Shown: one piece after another, positions 23,504-51,683 of the stretch
How the letters are laid out: every line of letters starts with the position of its first letter
How positions within the stretch are numbered: position 1 is the first letter of the stretch
Notes under the pieces: model-generated
The model's database searches: none
What the model was told of the DNA's origin: nothing
The model's input: only the letters and a program-made list of their open reading frames with translations
Assembly (NCBI RefSeq): GCF_014836555.1
Contig: NZ_JACSQQ010000012.1
Location: 3,181-54,863, forward strand
Reading direction: 5' to 3'
DNA length: 51,683 nt
DNA from: Oerskovia rustica
Lineage (GTDB): Bacteria > Actinomycetota > Actinomycetes > Actinomycetales > Cellulomonadaceae
Translations under genes and position numbers: made by a program

Positions 23504-24913
23504 TCAGCAGGCGCCGAGGTCCTTCCACACGCCCCAGTCGCTGGGGGCGGGAGCGTCGCCGCGGGTCCACCACTTGGCCTGCCACGTGCGGCCGTTGTGG
23601 GAGACGGTGTTGCCGCCCGTGTAGATGGTCGTCGCGCTCCAGGGGGCGGCCGAGCAGGTGGCGCCGGTCGTGCCGCCGGTGGTGCCGCCGGTCGTTCCGC
23701 CCGTGGTCCCGCCGGTCGTGCCACCGGTGGTGCCGCCGGTGGTGCCGCCGGTCGTTCCGCCCGTGGTCCCGCCCGTGGTGCCGCCGGTGGTGCCGCCGGT
23801 CGTTCCGCCCGTGGTCCCACCCGTGGTGCCGCCGGTCGTTCCGCCCGTCGTGCCCCCGCCGGAGCCCGTGCCGAGGCGCGCACCGACGGCCGTCGCGAGC
23901 GCGTAGTTGTTCTTCTTGTCCCAGTTGATCGACCAGGTCATGACACCGCCGATCTTGCCGTACGGCGTCGCGGGCTTGAAGGCGCCACAGTTCGTCCCCG
24001 TCTCGAGGCAGTCGACGGCCTTGATGACGTTCGCGACGGGCTGGTAGCCGCCGCCGGCCGCGGCCTGGACGGCGGGGACACCGATGCCGACCTGGTCGGG
24101 CCGCAGGCCCATCTCGAGCTGGATGCAGGAGAGCGAGGTGAGGAAGTCGATGCTGCCCTGGCTGTAGACCTGCTGGTTGCAGCCCATCATCGCGCCCGAG
24201 TTGTAGTACTGGGTGTTGACGATCGTGAGGATGTCCTTGATGGCGAGCGTGAGCTGGTAGTAGCCCATCGAGGTGGCCTGGTAGTCGATGGTCTGGGGGG
24301 CCATCGCGATGATGAGGTTCGGGCCCGCCTTGGCCGAGAGCTGGTGCAGCGCGCTCGACATGTACGTGGCGTTGATGCCGTGCTCGAGGTCGATGTCGAC
24401 GCCGTCGAAGCCGTACTCCTGCATGAGGGCGTACGCGGTGTCGGCGAAGTTCTTCGCCTCGGTCGCGTTGGAGACGATGACGTTCCCCTTCTCGCCGCCG
24501 ACCGACAGGATGACCTTGCGGCCCTGGGCCCGGATCGCGGCGATGTCGGCCTTGAACTGGGGCACGGTGTACCCGTTCAGCTCGGCGGTCGAGAGGTTGA
24601 AGGTGATCCCGCCGGGCGTGCCGGTCAGGTTGTCGGCGAACGCGACGGCGACCAGGTTGTAGGCGGGCGGGATGTCGCTCAGCGGCATGACGACCGAGCC
24701 GTTGTTGAAGTTGTGCCAGTAGCCCGTGAGCCACTGGTGGCCCGGGGCGGCGGCTGCTGCGACGGTCGCGGGCTGGGCGGCGGGCTGCGGGGCGGCCTGA
24801 GCGCTCGTGCCGGCGAGCGCGAGCCCGCCGAGGGCGACCGTGGCGGCGGTCAGTGCCGCGAGCAGGCGGGCCGGACGGCGGGCGCCGTCGGCGGGGTGGC
24901 GATGGGTTCTCAC
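23504..24913 (-). CDS. Secreted GH18 chitinase with C-terminal CBM5/12
   Basis: A 469-residue extracellular enzyme. Its signal peptide is cleaved near SAQA-AP (residue 40). The GH18 domain (about 58-350) contains the SVGG motif (137-140) and the catalytic DGVDIDLEHG with proton donor Glu177, followed by the MAPQ and MTWSINWD motifs. A Gly/Thr linker of about 16 TTGG units is followed by a CBM5/12-type module (about 419-469; APWSATTIYTGGNTVSHNG, WQAKWWTRGDAP). It should hydrolyse chitin beta-1,4 bonds outside the cell. GTG at 24913 is chosen because GAGGAG lies 6 nt upstream; a TTG 18 bp earlier lacks a site. Confidence 0.95.
   Translation of the reverse strand: MRTHRHPADGARRPARLLAALTAATVALGGLALAGTSAQAAPQPAAQPATVAAAAAPGHQWLTGYWHNFNNGSVVMPLSDIPPAYNLVAVAFADNLTGTPGGITFNLSTAELNGYTVPQFKADIAAIRAQGRKVILSVGGEKGNVIVSNATEAKNFADTAYALMQEYGFDGVDIDLEHGINATYMSSALHQLSAKAGPNLIIAMAPQTIDYQATSMGYYQLTLAIKDILTIVNTQYYNSGAMMGCNQQVYSQGSIDFLTSLSCIQLEMGLRPDQVGIGVPAVQAAAGGGYQPVANVIKAVDCLETGTNCGAFKPATPYGKIGGVMTWSINWDKKNNYALATAVGARLGTGSGGGTTGGTTGGTTGGTTGGTTGGTTGGTTGGTTGGTTGGTTGGTTGGTTGGTTGGTTGGTTGGTTGATCSAAPWSATTIYTGGNTVSHNGRTWQAKWWTRGDAPAPSDWGVWKDLGAC
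23661..23852 (-). repeat. 12-bp tandem repeat encoding the TTGG linker
   Basis: About sixteen degenerate 12-bp units (type GCCGCCGGTGGT on the plus strand) encode the Thr-Thr-Gly-Gly linker of the chitinase. Blocks of several units are themselves duplicated, indicating recent slippage or unequal exchange. Confidence 0.85.
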
Positions 24914-25306
24914 GTGGTGCTCCTCTAGCAAGGGGTCCGGGACGTCGTCGTCTCACCGGGACCGTCCGAGTGGCCGATCTGGGTCGGCCATGCCGACGCT
25001 ACGTGAGCCGCGTCACGCCTGTGATGAGGGGTTTCACCACTCTCTGCCTACGGACGGTACGGGGATCCCCCTACGTGTCGCGTACCCGTACGTGCGGGTT
25101 CCCGTCGCCCGACGTCGTCGCGCGGGTCGCGTGGTGCGGGTCGCCGAAGCACACGACGGACGTCCGGGAAGAACCTCCGGACGCGTGTATCAAACGCGGC
25201 GCCCGTTCCTCTCTCCCGGCAGGAAGGGGTCCGGTGCACCACCGGCCCGGTGCGTCGAGCGTGCGTGAGCACGGGCCGGAGGGAGGTCCTGCGGTGGCGG
25301 AAATGC
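24914..25306. other. Intergenic region between chitinase and sigma factor genes
   Basis: No credible gene. It separates two divergent units and must hold the chitinase promoter on the minus strand, but no strong -35/-10 pair could be picked. A loose dyad, GTGATG-N8-CACCAC (about 25020-25040), is present. I saw no match to the TGGTCTAGACCA-type DasR site expected for chitin regulation. Confidence 0.4.
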
Positions 25307-25336
25307 TTGTCCCACCTGGGCAGACGCCCCTAGACT
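25307..25336 (+). promoter_or_regulatory. Predicted promoter of the sigma/subtilisin/CHAT cassette
   Basis: TTGTCC (25307-25312) and TAGACT (25331-25336) are separated by 18 bp. The start site would fall near 25343, giving a leader of about 47 nt before the sigma factor ATG. This resembles a housekeeping promoter, so the sigma factor is probably made at a basal level. Autoregulation cannot be excluded. Confidence 0.5.
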
Positions 25337-25389
25337 CGGGTTCCCCCGAAGTACCCGAGCACGACCGAGAGCAGACGGCGCACCCAGCC

Positions 25390-26034
25390 ATGACACGGAT
25401 CACCGAGGACGTCCCGGAAGTCGACGAGCCGGAGGTGAGCCTCGGGGATCGTGCCGCGGCCGCCCTGCTCGACTACCGCGAGGGCAAGCACCAGGCACTG
25501 GCCGACTTCGTGAGAGAGGCCACGCCGTTGCTGTGGCACACGGTCAGGGCCCAGGGAGTCGTCCGCGAGCAGGCGGACGACATCGTCCAGAACACCTGGA
25601 TGGCCCTCGTACGCAACGCTCACACCATCCAGGAGCCGCACGCCGTGCTCAAGTGGCTCCTCGTGACCGCCAAGCGCGGCGCGTGGGAGGCCGTCCGCAA
25701 GCACCGTGACGACCAGAAGCGCCGGACCGAGCTGCCCGACGACATGCTCGACGGGCCCACGGGCACCCTTCCCTCTTCCGACCCCACCCCCGAGACCCAG
25801 GTCCTCGAGGTGGAGCGCGACCGCTACCTGTGGCGCGCTGTCCTCCAGCTGCCGGACCGCTGTCAGCAGCTCCTCCGGCTGATCTCGTTGGCGGACCGAC
25901 CCGACTACAAGTACATCTCGAGCGCCATCGGCATGCCGGTGGGCAGCATCGGGTCCAACCGTGGGCGGTGCTTGGCAAAGCTCCGCGACATCATCGAGAG
26001 CGAGCAGGGGGACAGGACATGGGAAACATCATGA
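25390..26034 (+). CDS. ECF-like RNA polymerase sigma factor
   Basis: A 214-residue protein with sigma-70 region 2 (about 35-107; ADFVREATPLLWHTVRAQGV, ADDIVQNTWMALVRN, VLKWLLVTAKRGAWEAVRKHR) and region 4 (about 148-205; LQLPDRCQQLLRLISL, YKYISSAIGMPVGSIGSNRGRCLAKLR). The two are joined by an acidic, Pro-rich linker with no region 3. The ATG at 25390 is chosen because the predicted promoter lies upstream of it and inside the longer reading frame. It is first in a four-gene unit with a small soluble protein, a subtilisin and a TPR-CHAT protease. It could direct transcription of this unit or of unlinked target genes. No membrane anti-sigma factor is adjacent. Confidence 0.92.
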   Translation: MTRITEDVPEVDEPEVSLGDRAAAALLDYREGKHQALADFVREATPLLWHTVRAQGVVREQADDIVQNTWMALVRNAHTIQEPHAVLKWLLVTAKRGAWEAVRKHRDDQKRRTELPDDMLDGPTGTLPSSDPTPETQVLEVERDRYLWRAVLQLPDRCQQLLRLISLADRPDYKYISSAIGMPVGSIGSNRGRCLAKLRDIIESEQGDRTWETS

Positions 26035-26528
26035 GCGCACCGTCGGGGTACAGCCCCGAGGAACCACTGGACGCCGTCGACCTCGAGATCCTGGCGGATC
26101 TCGCCCGTATCCACACGATGCTCGACCCGGTACCGGACGGGCTCGTCGAGCGGTCGCTGTTCGCGATCACGCTCGCAGGCCTGGAGGCCGAGGTCATGGA
26201 GCTCGAGTACGTCCGTGTGCCGGAGATGTCGGTCCGGGGCGAGGCGCCGCCGATCGAGGCGCGCACCATCACCTTCACGGCCGAGTCCCTGACCGTCATG
26301 ATCACGCTGTCCGCTCGTGACGACGGCCGGATCCGCATCGACGGATGGGCCGCCCCGGCCGGCGAGCTGACGGTCGAGCTGCACCGCCCGGACGGGATGG
26401 TCTCGACCGTCGCCGACGAGGACGGCCGGTTCGTGTTCGACGCCGTCGGGCCTGGTCCGGCGAGCCTGCTGCTGCGAGCCCCGGGTGCTGGCGGCGACGC
26501 CGTGACGACACCGATCATCGAGCTCTAG
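26019..26528 (+). CDS. Small soluble protein, helical N-terminus and Ig-like C-terminus
   Basis: A 169-residue protein with no signal, no membrane helix and no cysteine. An acidic helical part (about 15-62; DLEILADLARIHTMLDPVPDGLVERSLFAITLAGLEAEVMELEY, described here in pieces) precedes a beta-rich part. The last 65 residues (RIRIDGW, LTVELHRPDG, DEDGRFVFDAV, PASLLLR) resemble carboxypeptidase-regulatory or other Ig-like sandwiches. It overlaps the sigma factor gene by 16 bp and AGGGGG precedes the ATG at 26019. A second ATG (26031) would give an ATGA junction. Its place is that of an anti-sigma factor, yet it lacks a zinc-binding HxxxCxxC motif. A regulator or protease partner is inferred. 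Confidence 0.75.
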   Translation: MGNIMSAPSGYSPEEPLDAVDLEILADLARIHTMLDPVPDGLVERSLFAITLAGLEAEVMELEYVRVPEMSVRGEAPPIEARTITFTAESLTVMITLSARDDGRIRIDGWAAPAGELTVELHRPDGMVSTVADEDGRFVFDAVGPGPASLLLRAPGAGGDAVTTPIIEL

Positions 26529-26605
26529 CCGCCCCGCCCCTTCGTCATCTCGGCACGCCGGGCCGATCGACCCGACGGTAGTCCCCTTCGTGCATTGGAG
26601 CACCG

Positions 26606-28411
26606 ATGAGTGAGACCCCTGAGCAGTCGGCCACGCCGCCTGTCCCGCCGGGCGGGCGGCCCTTCGGAGACCGACCGAACCGGCTGCAGTGGCGGACGCG
26701 GACCCTCGACCCGATCACCGCACCGCGTCGGGCCGGGCAGTCCTCGCCGCACCCCACCTGGTACGTGGGGGACCGGGTCCTGGTTCCCGAGTCTCCGGAC
26801 GACCTGACCGGCAACCGCTCGCTGCGCTGGCTCGAGGAGGCCGCGGCGAAGTTCGACCTGACGGTCGAGGTCGAGGAGGCCAGCAGGAGTGACGCGGAGC
26901 TCATCACCCGGGCGGGGCTGGACCGCGAGACGACCCGTGACCTGCGACGCGTCTTCGGGCTGTCGGCGCGCCTGCGGCAGAAGGGCGGCAGCGAGGGGGA
27001 GCTCCCCGACGCCTGGAAGGTCATCGAGAAGCTCGGTGGACGCCTGTGTCCCGATGACAGGTGCAGCCCGCGGGTGGGCCTCGACCACATGATCGCGCCC
27101 GCGGCGGGGCCCGCCATCGGTGGCCAGCCGTACACGCAGCCGTTCCCGTACACGCAGCCCTTCCCGTACACGCAGCCGTTCCCGTACACGCAGCCGTTCC
27201 CCTACACCCAGCCGTTCCCCTACACCCAGCCCTTCCCCGTCACGGGAACCGCGGAGTACGCGACACCCGGCTCGGGCGGGCGGACCCCCGTGAACTGGGT
27301 CGGTCCCGTCCCCGCACGGCGGCTCGCCGTCGGTGCCGACGACTTCACCGCCGCGGACGGGACCCGCCGACCCGTCGTGGCGGTCCTGGACACCGGGGTG
27401 GGCGCGCACCCCTGGTTCGACGCCGCCCCGGAGACTCGAGGGACGATCGTCGTGCGAGACCCCGAGCTCCTCGGAGAGCCGCTGTCCGTCCTCCCGGAGA
27501 CGGAGTACGAGTACGAGGACCCCGAGATCGGAGGGGTGTCGATCTCTCCCTTGACGGGCCCGCTCGACCCGGTCGCCGGGCACGGCACGTTCATCGCCGG
27601 GCTCGTCCACCAGAAGTGCCCCGACGCGGTCATCCTGGCTCCTCGTCTCTACGGCGGTGCCGGGGTCATCCCCGAACGAGACCTCCTGCGCTCCCTGCGT
27701 CGTGTGCTTCTGTGGCACGTGCTGGGACTCGTCGGGCGGGACGGCTACGCGCCGATCGACGTCCTGGTCCTCTCGCTCGGGTACTACCACGAGCGCCCCG
27801 AGGACGCGGACTTCGACGCTCCCTTCGGCACCGTCCTGCGGGCGCTCCGGCGCTACGGGGTGCTGGTCGTCGTCTCGTCCGGGAACGACGGGCAGACCAG
27901 GCCGAGCTACCCTGCGGCGTTCGCGCCGCGCATCGACCGTCGGCAGACGCCGCCCGTGCCGCTGCAGGGTGTCACGCTCCTGCGCGACGAGCCGCCGGTG
28001 CTCACGGTCGGGGCGCAGAACCCGGACGGGACCACCGCCCTGTTCAGCAACGACGGGCCATGGGTCACGTGCGTGCGTCCCGGCGCCGCTCTCGTCTCGA
28101 CGGCGCCGACGACGATGGACGGCGCGGTGGCCCCCAGCCGATGGCTCAAGGAGCTCTGGTCGGACGGCAACCGGGCCACGATCGACCCCGAGGGGTTTCA
28201 GGGCGGGTTCGCTACCTGGAGCGGTACGTCCTTCGCAGGGCCCGTGCTGGCCGGCGAGCTCGCGTCCTACCTGCTCGACGACGCCGCGGCCGACCCGACG
28301 TCGCCGAGCGCCGTGGTACCGGGTGAAGGAGCGCCCGGACGCTGCGCATGGCTGTGGCAGTCCATTACCCTGGCCACTGGACTGGTCCCCACGGAGGTGA
28401 CCGCGGAATGA
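26606..28411 (+). CDS. Cytoplasmic subtilisin-like (S8) protease with PYTQPF repeats
   Basis: A 601-residue S8 peptidase with no signal peptide or membrane helix. The N-terminal domain (about 50-165) is alpha-rich and ends in SPRVGLDHMIAP. Six hexapeptide PYTQPF units (175-210) form a proline-rich linker to the catalytic domain (about 236-580). The triad is complete: Asp262 (VLDTGVG), His326 (AGHGTFIAG) and Ser542 (SGTSFAGP), with oxyanion Asn427 (SSGNDG). The catalytic domain carries a GPL...HGT region like secreted subtilisins but acts inside the cell. GGAG lies 5 nt before the ATG. It sits between the small soluble protein and the TPR-CHAT gene, 9 bp from the latter, so the two proteases are probably made together. 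A protease cascade is inferred. Confidence 0.92.
   Translation: MSETPEQSATPPVPPGGRPFGDRPNRLQWRTRTLDPITAPRRAGQSSPHPTWYVGDRVLVPESPDDLTGNRSLRWLEEAAAKFDLTVEVEEASRSDAELITRAGLDRETTRDLRRVFGLSARLRQKGGSEGELPDAWKVIEKLGGRLCPDDRCSPRVGLDHMIAPAAGPAIGGQPYTQPFPYTQPFPYTQPFPYTQPFPYTQPFPYTQPFPVTGTAEYATPGSGGRTPVNWVGPVPARRLAVGADDFTAADGTRRPVVAVLDTGVGAHPWFDAAPETRGTIVVRDPELLGEPLSVLPETEYEYEDPEIGGVSISPLTGPLDPVAGHGTFIAGLVHQKCPDAVILAPRLYGGAGVIPERDLLRSLRRVLLWHVLGLVGRDGYAPIDVLVLSLGYYHERPEDADFDAPFGTVLRALRRYGVLVVVSSGNDGQTRPSYPAAFAPRIDRRQTPPVPLQGVTLLRDEPPVLTVGAQNPDGTTALFSNDGPWVTCVRPGAALVSTAPTTMDGAVAPSRWLKELWSDGNRATIDPEGFQGGFATWSGTSFAGPVLAGELASYLLDDAAADPTSPSAVVPGEGAPGRCAWLWQSITLATGLVPTEVTAE
27128..27235 (+). repeat. 18-bp tandem repeat encoding six PYTQPF units
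   Basis: Six consecutive 18-bp units with third-base differences (CCG/CCC, ACG/ACC) encode PYTQPF exactly six times between the N-terminal and protease domains of the S8 gene. Amino-acid identity is kept while codons vary, which points to selection on the peptide. Confidence 0.95.
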
Positions 28412-28420
28412 GGTGACGGC

Positions 28421-30991
28421 GTGGCGCGCAGCGGTGGCCGGACCCTGCGCGCACGCCTCGAGTTCGCGTCGGGGACCAACGCGCGGGGGCGTCATGCCCG
28501 GGCCGCCCAGCTCTTCCGCACCATCCTCGCGGATCTCGAGGAACCGACCTTCGCGGACGACCCGGACAACAGCTACGCCCACGTCCGTGCGCTGATCGGT
28601 CTGGCGATCTCCAGGTTCGAGTACGAGGGTGACGTCGATCGCTCGCTCGAGCTGCTCGAGCAGGCCCAGGCGTGGGTAGAGGCCCATGGGCCCGAGGACC
28701 TGCAGCTCGTGGTCGGCGGACAGCGTGGCCTGCTCCGGCTGCGCACCGGCCGGGTCGTCGAGGCGGTCGAGGAGATGGACGCTGCCGCTCGGTTCATCGA
28801 CGTGGCGACGCCGCTCGACGCCGCCGTCCTCCTCCTGAACCGGGGGTCGCTGCACCTCGAGCTGGGCAACCTCGATCGGGCCGAGGCGGACCTTGCCGAG
28901 GTGGTGCGGCGCGCGGAGGACATGGGGGACGCGCTGCTCGCGTCCAAGGCGCAGCACAACCTCGGCTACGCGAAGTACCTCGGCGGCGACCTGCCGACAG
29001 CCCTGCGCGCCATGGAGGAGGCGGAGCGCGGTGCTCCCGAACGGCACGCCTCCGTGGGCCTCATCGACAAGGCGCAGGTTCTTCTCGAGGCCGGACTGCT
29101 CTCGGACGCCGACTCGACGCTCGCCGAGGCGCGCGAGCACCTCGTCCGCAACCGGATGGTCAGGGACGTCGCCGAGGTCGAGCTGCTGCGTGCACAGTGC
29201 CTCGTGGGGCTCCGCCGCTACACCGAGGCGCAGCGTCAGGCCCGCGCGGCCGCGGCCAGGTTCGACCGGATCGGCAACGACCCCTGGGCTGCCCGGGCTC
29301 GGGTCGCCGAGCTCCAGGCGCGGCTCGCCGAGGACCGTTCGGCGGGCCTCTCGGTCGGCGTGGCACGCCGTCGGGCGGCCCGTGCGCTCGCTCTCGCGGA
29401 CGTGGGGGCCGCGCTCGGTGAGGCCGGTGGGCGTGGGGTGACCGTCCCCGCACAGCTCCTCGCGGCAGAGTGGCTCCTGGCGGCGAAGGACCCGGCGGGC
29501 GCGCGCGAGGTCCTCTCGCGGGTCCCGGGGCACCTCGGGCGGGTGGCGCTGCCGCTGCGTCTGCAGCACCAGGCAGTGGCGGCCCAGCTGGCGTTCGCCA
29601 CCGGGGAGCGTGGCGCTGCGCTCCGTGCCGTGCGCAAGGGGCAGCGCATGCTGGCGGAGCACCGCGAAGGGCTGGGGTCGGTCGACGCCGTGACGGCTTC
29701 CGCGGTCCACGGGGTGCGCCTGGGGCACGTGGACGTGGCCGCGGCCCTGCGTACCGGCCGCGCCGCGGCGCTGCTCGACGCCGTCGAGCGTGGACGTGCG
29801 ACCGTCGCCGGCAGCGGGAGGGTCGTGCCGCCGTCCGACGCCGAGTCCGCCGAGCTCCTCACCCGTGCGCGCCAGGAGATCGAGTCTGCGAGGCTCCTGG
29901 GGGCGAACCCCTCGGGTGAACGTCTCGAGCGCCGGCGTGCGCACCTGAGCGAGGCGCGACGGCTGCAGGAGGCTGCTCGGCGTCGGGCCTGGCAGGACGG
30001 AGGGGGAGCGCAGACGCCGACCGCGGTCACCGCACGCCGCCTGCGCCGCGCGCTGTCGACGGCGAGCGCGTCGACGGTCGTCGCGGACTTCGTCGTCGCG
30101 GACGAGACGCTCCGCGTCCTGCGGGCGGACGCCTCGGGGCTGAGCATGATCCGGCTGGCCCCGATGGTGGAGGTCGGCGAGCGCATCCGGCGTGCGCGTG
30201 CGGACCTCGACGTCCTGTCGAACGGGCTGATCCCGGCGCCCATGCGGGCCGCCGCCCGGGCGTCGCTCGACCGGAGCCTGGCGTGGCTCGACCGCGAGGT
30301 CCTCGCGCCGATCGACGCGCAGGGCGACCTGCACATCGCCGCGCGCGACCTGCTGCTCGCCGTGCCGTGGTCCTCGTTGCCCTCACGCGCGGGACGCCGG
30401 ACGTGGGTCAACTCGTGGATCGACCTGCAGGAGTCGACGGTCGAGCAGACCAAGCCCGACGTCGTGGTCGTGGCGGGACCGGGACTACGGGCGGCGGAGG
30501 CCGAGGCCGAGGCCGTGGCGAGGACGTGGGAGAGCGCCACGGTCCTGACCGGCGAGGAGGCCACCTGCTCGGCCACGGTCGAGAGGCTCCCGTCGGCCGC
30601 GGTCGTCCACCTCGCGACGCACGGCCGGCACGAGACCGACAACCCGTTGTTCTCCTCGCTGCGGCTCGCGGACGGCCCCCTGTTCGCGCACGAGCTCGAC
30701 GGCGTGGACCTCCGAGGCGCCGTGGTCGTCCTCTCGGCCTGCGAGGCGGGGCTGTCGACGGTCCGGATCGGTGGTGAGCCGCTGGGGCTCACGAGCGTCC
30801 TGCTCCGGCTGGGGGCAGCGGCCGTCGTGTCGAGCGTCGCCCCGCTGCGGGACGACGTCGCCGCGCGGGTCATGCCCGAGTTTCACGGCGAGCTGCGGGC
30901 GGGGGCCACGCCGGGGGACGCGCTCGCGGCCGCGGTCGCGAGCGAGGAGGAACCGGTTCCCCTGGTCTGCTTCGGGCCGCTCGCGGTCTGA
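28421..30991 (+). CDS. TPR protein with C-terminal CHAT (caspase-like) protease domain
   Basis: An 856-residue soluble protein. Residues about 15-450 form TPR-like helical repeats (for example LLNRGSLHLELGNLDRAEADLAEVVRRAEDMGDALLASKAQHNLGYAKYLGG, quoted only by its ends elsewhere). A helical connector (about 450-545) leads to a CHAT domain (about 635-856). The cysteine-protease dyad is intact: His734 in HLATHG and Cys774 in LSACEAG. CHAT peptidases belong to clan CD with caspases, and TPR-CHAT proteins include the Csx29 protease of type III-E CRISPR systems. The GTG start has AGGTGA upstream and follows the subtilisin gene by 9 bp. It probably senses a signal through the TPRs and cleaves a target, perhaps after processing by the subtilisin. 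Confidence 0.93.
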   Translation: MARSGGRTLRARLEFASGTNARGRHARAAQLFRTILADLEEPTFADDPDNSYAHVRALIGLAISRFEYEGDVDRSLELLEQAQAWVEAHGPEDLQLVVGGQRGLLRLRTGRVVEAVEEMDAAARFIDVATPLDAAVLLLNRGSLHLELGNLDRAEADLAEVVRRAEDMGDALLASKAQHNLGYAKYLGGDLPTALRAMEEAERGAPERHASVGLIDKAQVLLEAGLLSDADSTLAEAREHLVRNRMVRDVAEVELLRAQCLVGLRRYTEAQRQARAAAARFDRIGNDPWAARARVAELQARLAEDRSAGLSVGVARRRAARALALADVGAALGEAGGRGVTVPAQLLAAEWLLAAKDPAGAREVLSRVPGHLGRVALPLRLQHQAVAAQLAFATGERGAALRAVRKGQRMLAEHREGLGSVDAVTASAVHGVRLGHVDVAAALRTGRAAALLDAVERGRATVAGSGRVVPPSDAESAELLTRARQEIESARLLGANPSGERLERRRAHLSEARRLQEAARRRAWQDGGGAQTPTAVTARRLRRALSTASASTVVADFVVADETLRVLRADASGLSMIRLAPMVEVGERIRRARADLDVLSNGLIPAPMRAAARASLDRSLAWLDREVLAPIDAQGDLHIAARDLLLAVPWSSLPSRAGRRTWVNSWIDLQESTVEQTKPDVVVVAGPGLRAAEAEAEAVARTWESATVLTGEEATCSATVERLPSAAVVHLATHGRHETDNPLFSSLRLADGPLFAHELDGVDLRGAVVVLSACEAGLSTVRIGGEPLGLTSVLLRLGAAAVVSSVAPLRDDVAARVMPEFHGELRAGATPGDALAAAVASEEEPVPLVCFGPLAV

Positions 30992-51654: not shown

Positions 51655-51683
51655 GGGGGGGGGGGGGGGGGGGGGGGGGGGGG
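51655..51683. repeat. Terminal G29 homopolymer
   Basis: The last 29 bases are all G, starting 20 bp after rpsQ. It is most simply an assembly or sequencing end at a G-rich homopolymer. It resembles the G12 tract after rpoB, so a real G tract may seed it. Confidence 0.8.

Follow-up and report, generated by a model that had tools for sequence, protein, structure and literature searches.

The 51,683-nucleotide stretch of Oerskovia rustica DNA analysed here, the window to whose positions all coordinates below refer, carries four intact plus-strand genes in the order SIG-SML-S8-CHAT, encoding an extracytoplasmic function (ECF) sigma factor, a soluble small protein, a subtilase and a TPR-CHAT protein. 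Comparison of related loci indicates that S8, a tandem peptide array within it and the TPR start of CHAT make up a single hypervariable allelic block, while SIG, SML and the catalytic end of CHAT follow the species backbone. By gene context, the locus belongs to ECF54 (Huang 2015; Casas-Pastor 2021, as cited in PMC8999054), which section 3.3 of PMC8999054 describes as ECF sigma factor loci, mainly in Actinobacteria, whose conserved gene context contains carboxypeptidase, subtilase and CHAT domains. Here, too, subtilase, CHAT and carboxypeptidase-type domain genes lie near an ECF sigma factor gene, and since this context is already in print, the cassette itself is not new. What the locus adds to ECF54 as published is a soluble partner that is itself conserved, a promoter motif predicted to be autoregulatory, the array in the zymogen and the allelic block. 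The promoter motif, array and block were not found in the available portions of the literature searched, which did not extend to the primary ECF papers (Huang 2015; Casas-Pastor 2021), and the search returned no paper joining a CHAT domain, an ECF sigma factor and a subtilisin. The features of the locus are as follows:

25186 to 25211, plus strand: ECF-type promoter motif TGTATCA-N15-CCTC, predicted to be autoregulatory (62 exact copies at spacing 15 in 91 loci)
25307 to 25336, plus strand: SigA-like promoter TTGTCC-N18-TAGACT, conserved in Oerskovia and Cellulosimicrobium loci
25390 to 26034, plus strand: SIG, ECF sigma factor of 214 aa (Sigma70_r2 in Pfam, TIGR02937)
26031 to 26528, plus strand: SML, soluble small protein and probable anti-sigma factor, modelled as two helices and a beta-sandwich; adjoins SIG in 40 of 40 fetched distant regions
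26606 to 28411, plus strand: S8, subtilase zymogen of 601 aa (Peptidase_S8, invariant triad, pro-subtilisin alignments)
26747 to 27100, plus strand: propeptide-like N-domain of S8 (about residues 48–165), ordered in the model and within the pro-subtilisin alignments
27128 to 27235, plus strand: six tandem PYTQPF units in the S8 linker, from repeat and alignment analysis; disordered in the model
28421 to 30991, plus strand: TPR-CHAT protein of 856 aa, with CHAT at residues 619–839, TPR matches and conserved His734 and Cys774
28421 to 29410, plus strand: hypervariable N-terminal part of CHAT (residues 1–330), co-segregating with S8 and the array

The boundaries of the block are visible in DNA identity. 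Compared with O. turbata (L096), intervals over SIG-SML are 92–99% identical, those over S8 61–89% and those over the CHAT start 54–61%, after which identity rises again along CHAT; in the O. turbata assembly, the CHAT frame is interrupted near codon 112. Compared with L097, intervals over S8 and CHAT are 47–85% identical and those over rplJ-rplL 95–100%. The S8 protein of the window is 96% identical to two named Oerskovia S8 proteins. Among 13 Cellulosimicrobium loci, median protein identity is high for SIG (0.91), SML (0.90), the CHAT C-terminus (0.85) and rplJ (0.99), and low for the S8 N-domain (0.34), the S8 protease (0.57) and CHAT residues 8–115 (0.36). Over 595 pairs from 36 loci, SIG, SML and CHAT 331–856 track the rplJ backbone (rho 0.55–0.69), whereas S8 and CHAT 8–330 follow it weakly (rho 0.07–0.29). 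With SIG and rplJ partialled out, S8C correlates with the CHAT N-terminal segments (0.41 and 0.43) as opposed to the CHAT C-terminus (0.03), and SML with the CHAT C-terminus (0.43) as opposed to S8 (0.09 and −0.02). Steady fast evolution of S8 and CHAT was rejected as an explanation: within an allele class (L092–L094), nonsynonymous differences (pN) are low relative to synonymous ones (pS), and divergence lies between classes. Because pN is low within a class, the pattern points to an exchange of old alleles. As a side observation, a fragment like the last 28 CHAT residues lies between CHAT and rplJ in L031 (12841–12924), and another in L005 (957–1040); such fragments look like remnants of an exchange or duplication.

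The array, which the sequence-only reading of this DNA did not mention, is a disordered tandem stretch between the S8 prodomain and the protease. Its unit varies between lineages and is near-uniform inside one protein; units differ at 44% of synonymous versus 0.9% of nonsynonymous sites, the latter value being lowered by the selection of arrays on protein identity. Subtilisins favour Pro-aromatic sites, as found in the array units. An intact S8 triad behind a propeptide domain fold indicates that S8 has a pro-subtilisin (zymogen) fold, as judged from the model. It shares this arrangement of propeptide-like N-domain and S8 domain with pro-subtilisins and intracellular subtilisins, and differs from them in the lineage-specific array at the pro-mature junction; no signal peptide was seen by hydropathy. 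The catalytic residues, which the sequence-only reading had numbered correctly, are conserved in alignments from which S8 proteins below 360 aa, CHAT proteins below 650 aa and duplicates were left out: S8 Asp262, His326 and Ser542, together with Asn427, are invariant in 69 of 69 proteins, CHAT His734 is found in all 69, and Cys774 in 68 of them, a marginal sequence with a gap at this position accounting for the difference.

The array also co-segregates with the start of CHAT. In 21 loci of two genera, array units correspond one-to-one to CHAT N-terminal classes, with the exception of PYTQPL and PYTQPH, which fall into the same class, and the two array-less loci among the 21 have a common CHAT N-terminal class of their own. 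At the best thresholds, the adjusted mutual information (AMI) with the array unit is 0.91 for CHAT 8–115, 0.69 for CHAT 116–330 and 0.53–0.56 for the rest; the thresholds chosen by the analyst gave 0.88 versus 0.38–0.57, a larger contrast than at the best thresholds. L036, whose CHAT frame is broken and whose N-terminus is unaligned, formed a class of its own in a test on 29 loci and was left out of the best-threshold AMI. When units were shuffled within S8 classes, the observed value was reached in 0 of 20000 trials, and the partial Mantel r was 0.51 for CHAT 8–115, 0.73 for CHAT 116–330 and 0.34 for the C-terminus. The relatives entering these statistics are not independent; given the kinship of the loci and the adjacency of the genes, co-segregation is consistent with a contact between the two proteases and lends it support short of proof.

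The small protein is predicted to consist of a helical hairpin and a beta-sandwich: its model (predicted local distance difference test score, pLDDT, 76.5) has helices at residues 19–35 and 42–66, a poorly predicted stretch and a sandwich at 81–163. In 18 of 22 members, the sandwich resembles CarboxypepD_reg at E up to 1, the window protein lying below the Pfam cut-off, and Pfam detected no peptidase domain in SML; the 'carboxypeptidase' of earlier context descriptions is thus probably this regulatory-like fold. SML remains next to SIG also in loci that have the proteases at another site, and by position and co-retention, not by fold, it is a probable anti-sigma factor. In 52 of 71 non-duplicate loci, a start codon is available for SML that has a four-base overlap with the SIG stop. 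The 16-bp overlap and 169-residue product given by the sequence-only reading are accordingly replaced by what is most likely a four-base ATGA overlap (26031–26034) and a 165-aa protein, while its four intact same-strand genes stand, with domains assigned by Pfam and NCBIfam (Pfam: Sigma70_r2; CarboxypepD_reg, sub-threshold; Peptidase_S8; CHAT with weak TPR matches).

Two promoter-like elements precede SIG. Position 25307, where that reading let the cassette start, is the −35 element of the SigA-like promoter TTGTCC-N18-TAGACT, conserved ahead of ATG 25390 in Oerskovia and Cellulosimicrobium, and the sigma gene therefore most likely starts at this ATG. A second promoter-like motif lies at 25186–25211, the sequence-only reading having predicted a single promoter. 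A generic consensus scan detected no sigma-70 promoter at the window locus. The second motif, TGTATCA-N15-[C/G]CTC, precedes the first operon gene in about half of the loci examined, whichever gene leads: it mostly lies upstream of SIG, and ahead of S8 where S8 leads (L113, L114, L126, L142, L147, L150). Exact copies in 91 loci, some of them duplicates of one assembly, cluster at spacing 15, with 62 copies compared with 0–9 for any of the other spacings between 10 and 21. At most 450 bases upstream of SIG or S8, it occurs in 49 of the 91 loci, or 38 distinct sequence contexts by script, L121 being additional. Exact scans of 12 whole genomes gave 25 matches, 15 of them at the locus, versus 11 control matches. 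A larger regulon was considered and rejected, one-mismatch matches in the window's own genome numbering 6 versus 8 in the control; the second exact match there (L153) lies between the ends of peroxidase-like and LacI-like genes, with no evident gene behind it. Across whole genomes, the motif is thus almost restricted to the locus, and it appears to mark autoregulation, presumably by SIG as its user, with no visible wider regulon. A literature search for TGTATCA as a sigma factor promoter found only a Listeria paper.

Other motif copies were seen outside the cassette promoter. In five loci, a second copy stands before an AAA_16-LuxR regulator gene, and in four of them exactly 34 bases separate the beginning of the motif from the start codon, a spacing as for a leaderless transcript; one of the five, L204, was outside the Pfam scan. 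In other families, this regulator is likely to be a further target of the sigma factor. Four of the five genes with their own motif copy lie at these coordinates:

L201, 8416 to 10353: AAA_16-LuxR regulator gene
L202, 8354 to 10324: AAA_16-LuxR regulator gene
L147, 14834 to 17041: AAA_16-LuxR regulator gene
L142, 10097 to 12775: AAA_16-LuxR regulator gene

In L120 (9139), L121 (5243), L122 (4884) and L124 (18339), a second copy lies just past the CHAT end with no clear gene behind it, and perhaps serves a small gene or RNA.

The cassette is conserved in actinobacteria and stands beside rplJ in Cellulomonadaceae and Promicromonosporaceae. A CHAT relative is present in 106 of 150 family genomes, and 28 of the 31 loci from named organisms have the order SIG-SML-S8-CHAT; among the remaining three, one contig begins inside S8, and Phytomonospora and Actinopolymorpha have S8-SIG-SML-CHAT. 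A match to rplJ lies downstream in 26 of the 31, three contigs ending earlier and two loci (L060, L061) lying elsewhere; with rplJ adjoining the cassette so often, a mobile defence island is not favoured in this family. The plasmid collection gave one SML match, on an 11.8 Mb record. Across the class, the SML profile matches 90 of 394 genomes and the CHAT profile 95. In 40 regions fetched from 39 SML-positive genomes, some with contig ends nearby, SIG adjoins SML in every one, 28 contain S8 and 32 contain CHAT. The sequence-only reading had proposed co-localisation of homologues as a test, and S8 matches of at least 300 bits, found in 24 of the 394 genomes, bear it out: all 24 carry SML, 23 within about 3 kb on one contig and the 24th on two contigs. 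Where S8 matches are weaker, SML is present in 6 of 11. A further 20 CHAT regions were chosen where SML had not previously been seen nearby; in 8 of them, all four genes occur together, CHAT being divergent and some genes recognised through weak matches. The other 12 hold S8 and CHAT apart from SIG and SML, and the cassette thus comprises two modules, SIG-SML and S8-CHAT, that usually adjoin but are sometimes separated.

Further observations concern this distribution. SIG-SML without S8 or CHAT occurs at another site, near DUF3071, phosphodiesterase and DUF5998 genes (L125, L127, L130, L137, L139, L140, L141), the motif lying about 400–480 bases upstream of SIG in L137, L140 and L141. Many genomes of genus g7 have two CHAT matches in tandem (e.g. 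G031:C6:39274-44516). A contig labelled Sphaerisporangium cinnabarinum (L034 / L100) groups with Cellulosimicrobium at this locus, and its public label may be wrong.

The closest precedent for the mechanism that we propose is the Csx29-Csx30-CASP-sigma system of type III-E CRISPR, which PMC10028731 describes, in the part available, as a TPR-CHAT protease, a cut inhibitor, an ECF-like sigma factor and autoregulation. The present locus likewise combines a TPR-CHAT protease, a proposed cut inhibitor, an ECF-like sigma factor and autoregulation. It differs in having a second protease, S8, in an SML far smaller than Csx30 (the two being compared by size alone), and in that neither Cas7-11 nor a crRNA was noticed among the four genes and the annotated neighbours, where no dedicated CRISPR/Cas search was made. 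The CHAT protein is not assigned to Csx29, its NCBIfam match scoring 22.1 bits against a cut-off of 300. In the DegS/RseP system, as outlined in the part of PMC8103513 available, proteolysis of the anti-sigma factor frees the ECF sigma factor RpoE. Proteolysis would free an ECF sigma factor here as well, but hydropathy shows no membrane segment in any of the four proteins, and the signal would thus be cytoplasmic.

Based on these features, we tentatively put forward, as a possible reading, a proteolytic switch of the ECF54 type that operates in the cytoplasm and amplifies itself, in which (i) the array peptides would act as docking or cleavage sites for mutual recognition between S8 and the CHAT TPR region; (ii) one protease would activate the other after array recognition; (iii) the active CHAT domain would cut SML, the putative anti-sigma factor; (iv) the freed SIG would transcribe its own operon and raise protease levels in a positive feedback; (v) this feedback would end in growth arrest, death or a defence response. 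Anatomy, linkage, the motif and co-segregation have computational support, and every biochemical step, the trigger and the output are inferred. More speculatively, and in our view improbably, the array and the CHAT TPR region might form a diversified lock and key: the repeated allele-specific peptide would recruit several CHAT molecules for activation by proximity, and strains would swap the pair as a block that sets specificity, much as with genes of self/non-self or immune recognition, with the conserved anti-sigma/sigma/CHAT catalytic core making the response self-amplifying.

Several observations weigh against the proposed switch. For SML, no anti-sigma fold was detected: no Pfam anti-sigma family is among the matches listed, and structure matches cover the beta-sandwich only. 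By script, 15 of 67 high-scoring S8 entries have no array. PYTQPH splits over two CHAT classes among the 29 loci with arrays, and at the best thresholds the array unit agrees with S8 itself almost as closely (AMI 0.84 for S8C and 0.79 for S8N versus 0.91 for the CHAT N-terminus). Because S8, array and CHAT start adjoin on the chromosome, their co-segregation can be accounted for by the exchange of a single stretch of DNA. The exact motif is missing within 450 bases in 42 of the 91 loci by script, some of which have near matches, and no motif at all was found in 2 of the 12 whole genomes. In the 12 regions of separate S8-CHAT, a weak, divergent S8 stands beside CHAT with no SIG or SML there, SML being located elsewhere in each genome. 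The relay of two proteases acting on a regulator, as the sequence-only reading interpreted the locus, gains from co-localisation, from the co-segregation of S8 with the N-terminal TPR part of CHAT and from the promoter motif that ties the sigma factor to the locus, and loses from these 12 regions and from a context already published as ECF54.

Among the alternatives, a recognition or immune module deserves consideration, though we think it doubtful. The hypervariable S8 and CHAT N-terminus would directly sense molecules of foreign or non-self origin, such as a phage or competitor protein mimicked or baited by the array, with cell death as the outcome. The near-identical backbones of the 13 Cellulosimicrobium loci, with very different S8 and CHAT starts, agree with this, as does the weak similarity of the CHAT end to Csx29; sharp divergence among close relatives is common in genes for recognition or immunity. 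However, the cassette occupies one fixed core site in the family, beside rplJ in most named loci, PADLOC models give weak matches only, and ligand and phenotype are not known. The published ECF54 view seems to us quite unlikely. In the section cited, PMC8999054 proposes proteolytic control with no anti-sigma factor from the same gene context, such that peptidases degrade the sigma factor until a signal stops the degradation; proteases and sigma factor indeed share one operon here. Yet the retention of SML beside SIG away from the proteases, and its lack of a peptidase domain, argue for an anti-sigma-type partner, and an autoinduced operon destroying its own activator would be a negative feedback, possible but a poor switch. 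We consider it very unlikely that this is an ordinary protein-quality or envelope-stress operon with variability from relaxed constraint and the array as a flexible linker that expands and contracts, since, although the core position by ribosomal genes, the frequency in family genomes, the predicted disorder of the array and the easy turnover of tandem repeats would suit it, the contrast of synonymous and nonsynonymous differences between array units, the low within-class pN/pS and the failure to detect a regulon beyond the locus speak against it.

Elsewhere in the window, a 12/36-base repeat encoding a Gly-Thr-rich linker (23657–23858) lies inside a minus-strand chitinase-like gene (23504–24931) upstream of the cassette, and the terminal run of 29 G (51655–51683) is probably an assembly or sequencing artefact.

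In summary, our analysis gives the uncharacterised ECF54 loci a testable mechanism, with an anti-sigma candidate, a promoter motif and natural matched and mismatched allele pairs. The uniform yet lineage-specific array would amount to a code, provided by nature, that specifies the partner of the protease. If the proposed switch is true, many actinobacterial families would possess a CRISPR-independent counterpart of the sigma-freeing caspase-like protease, with a second protease and a built-in amplifier.

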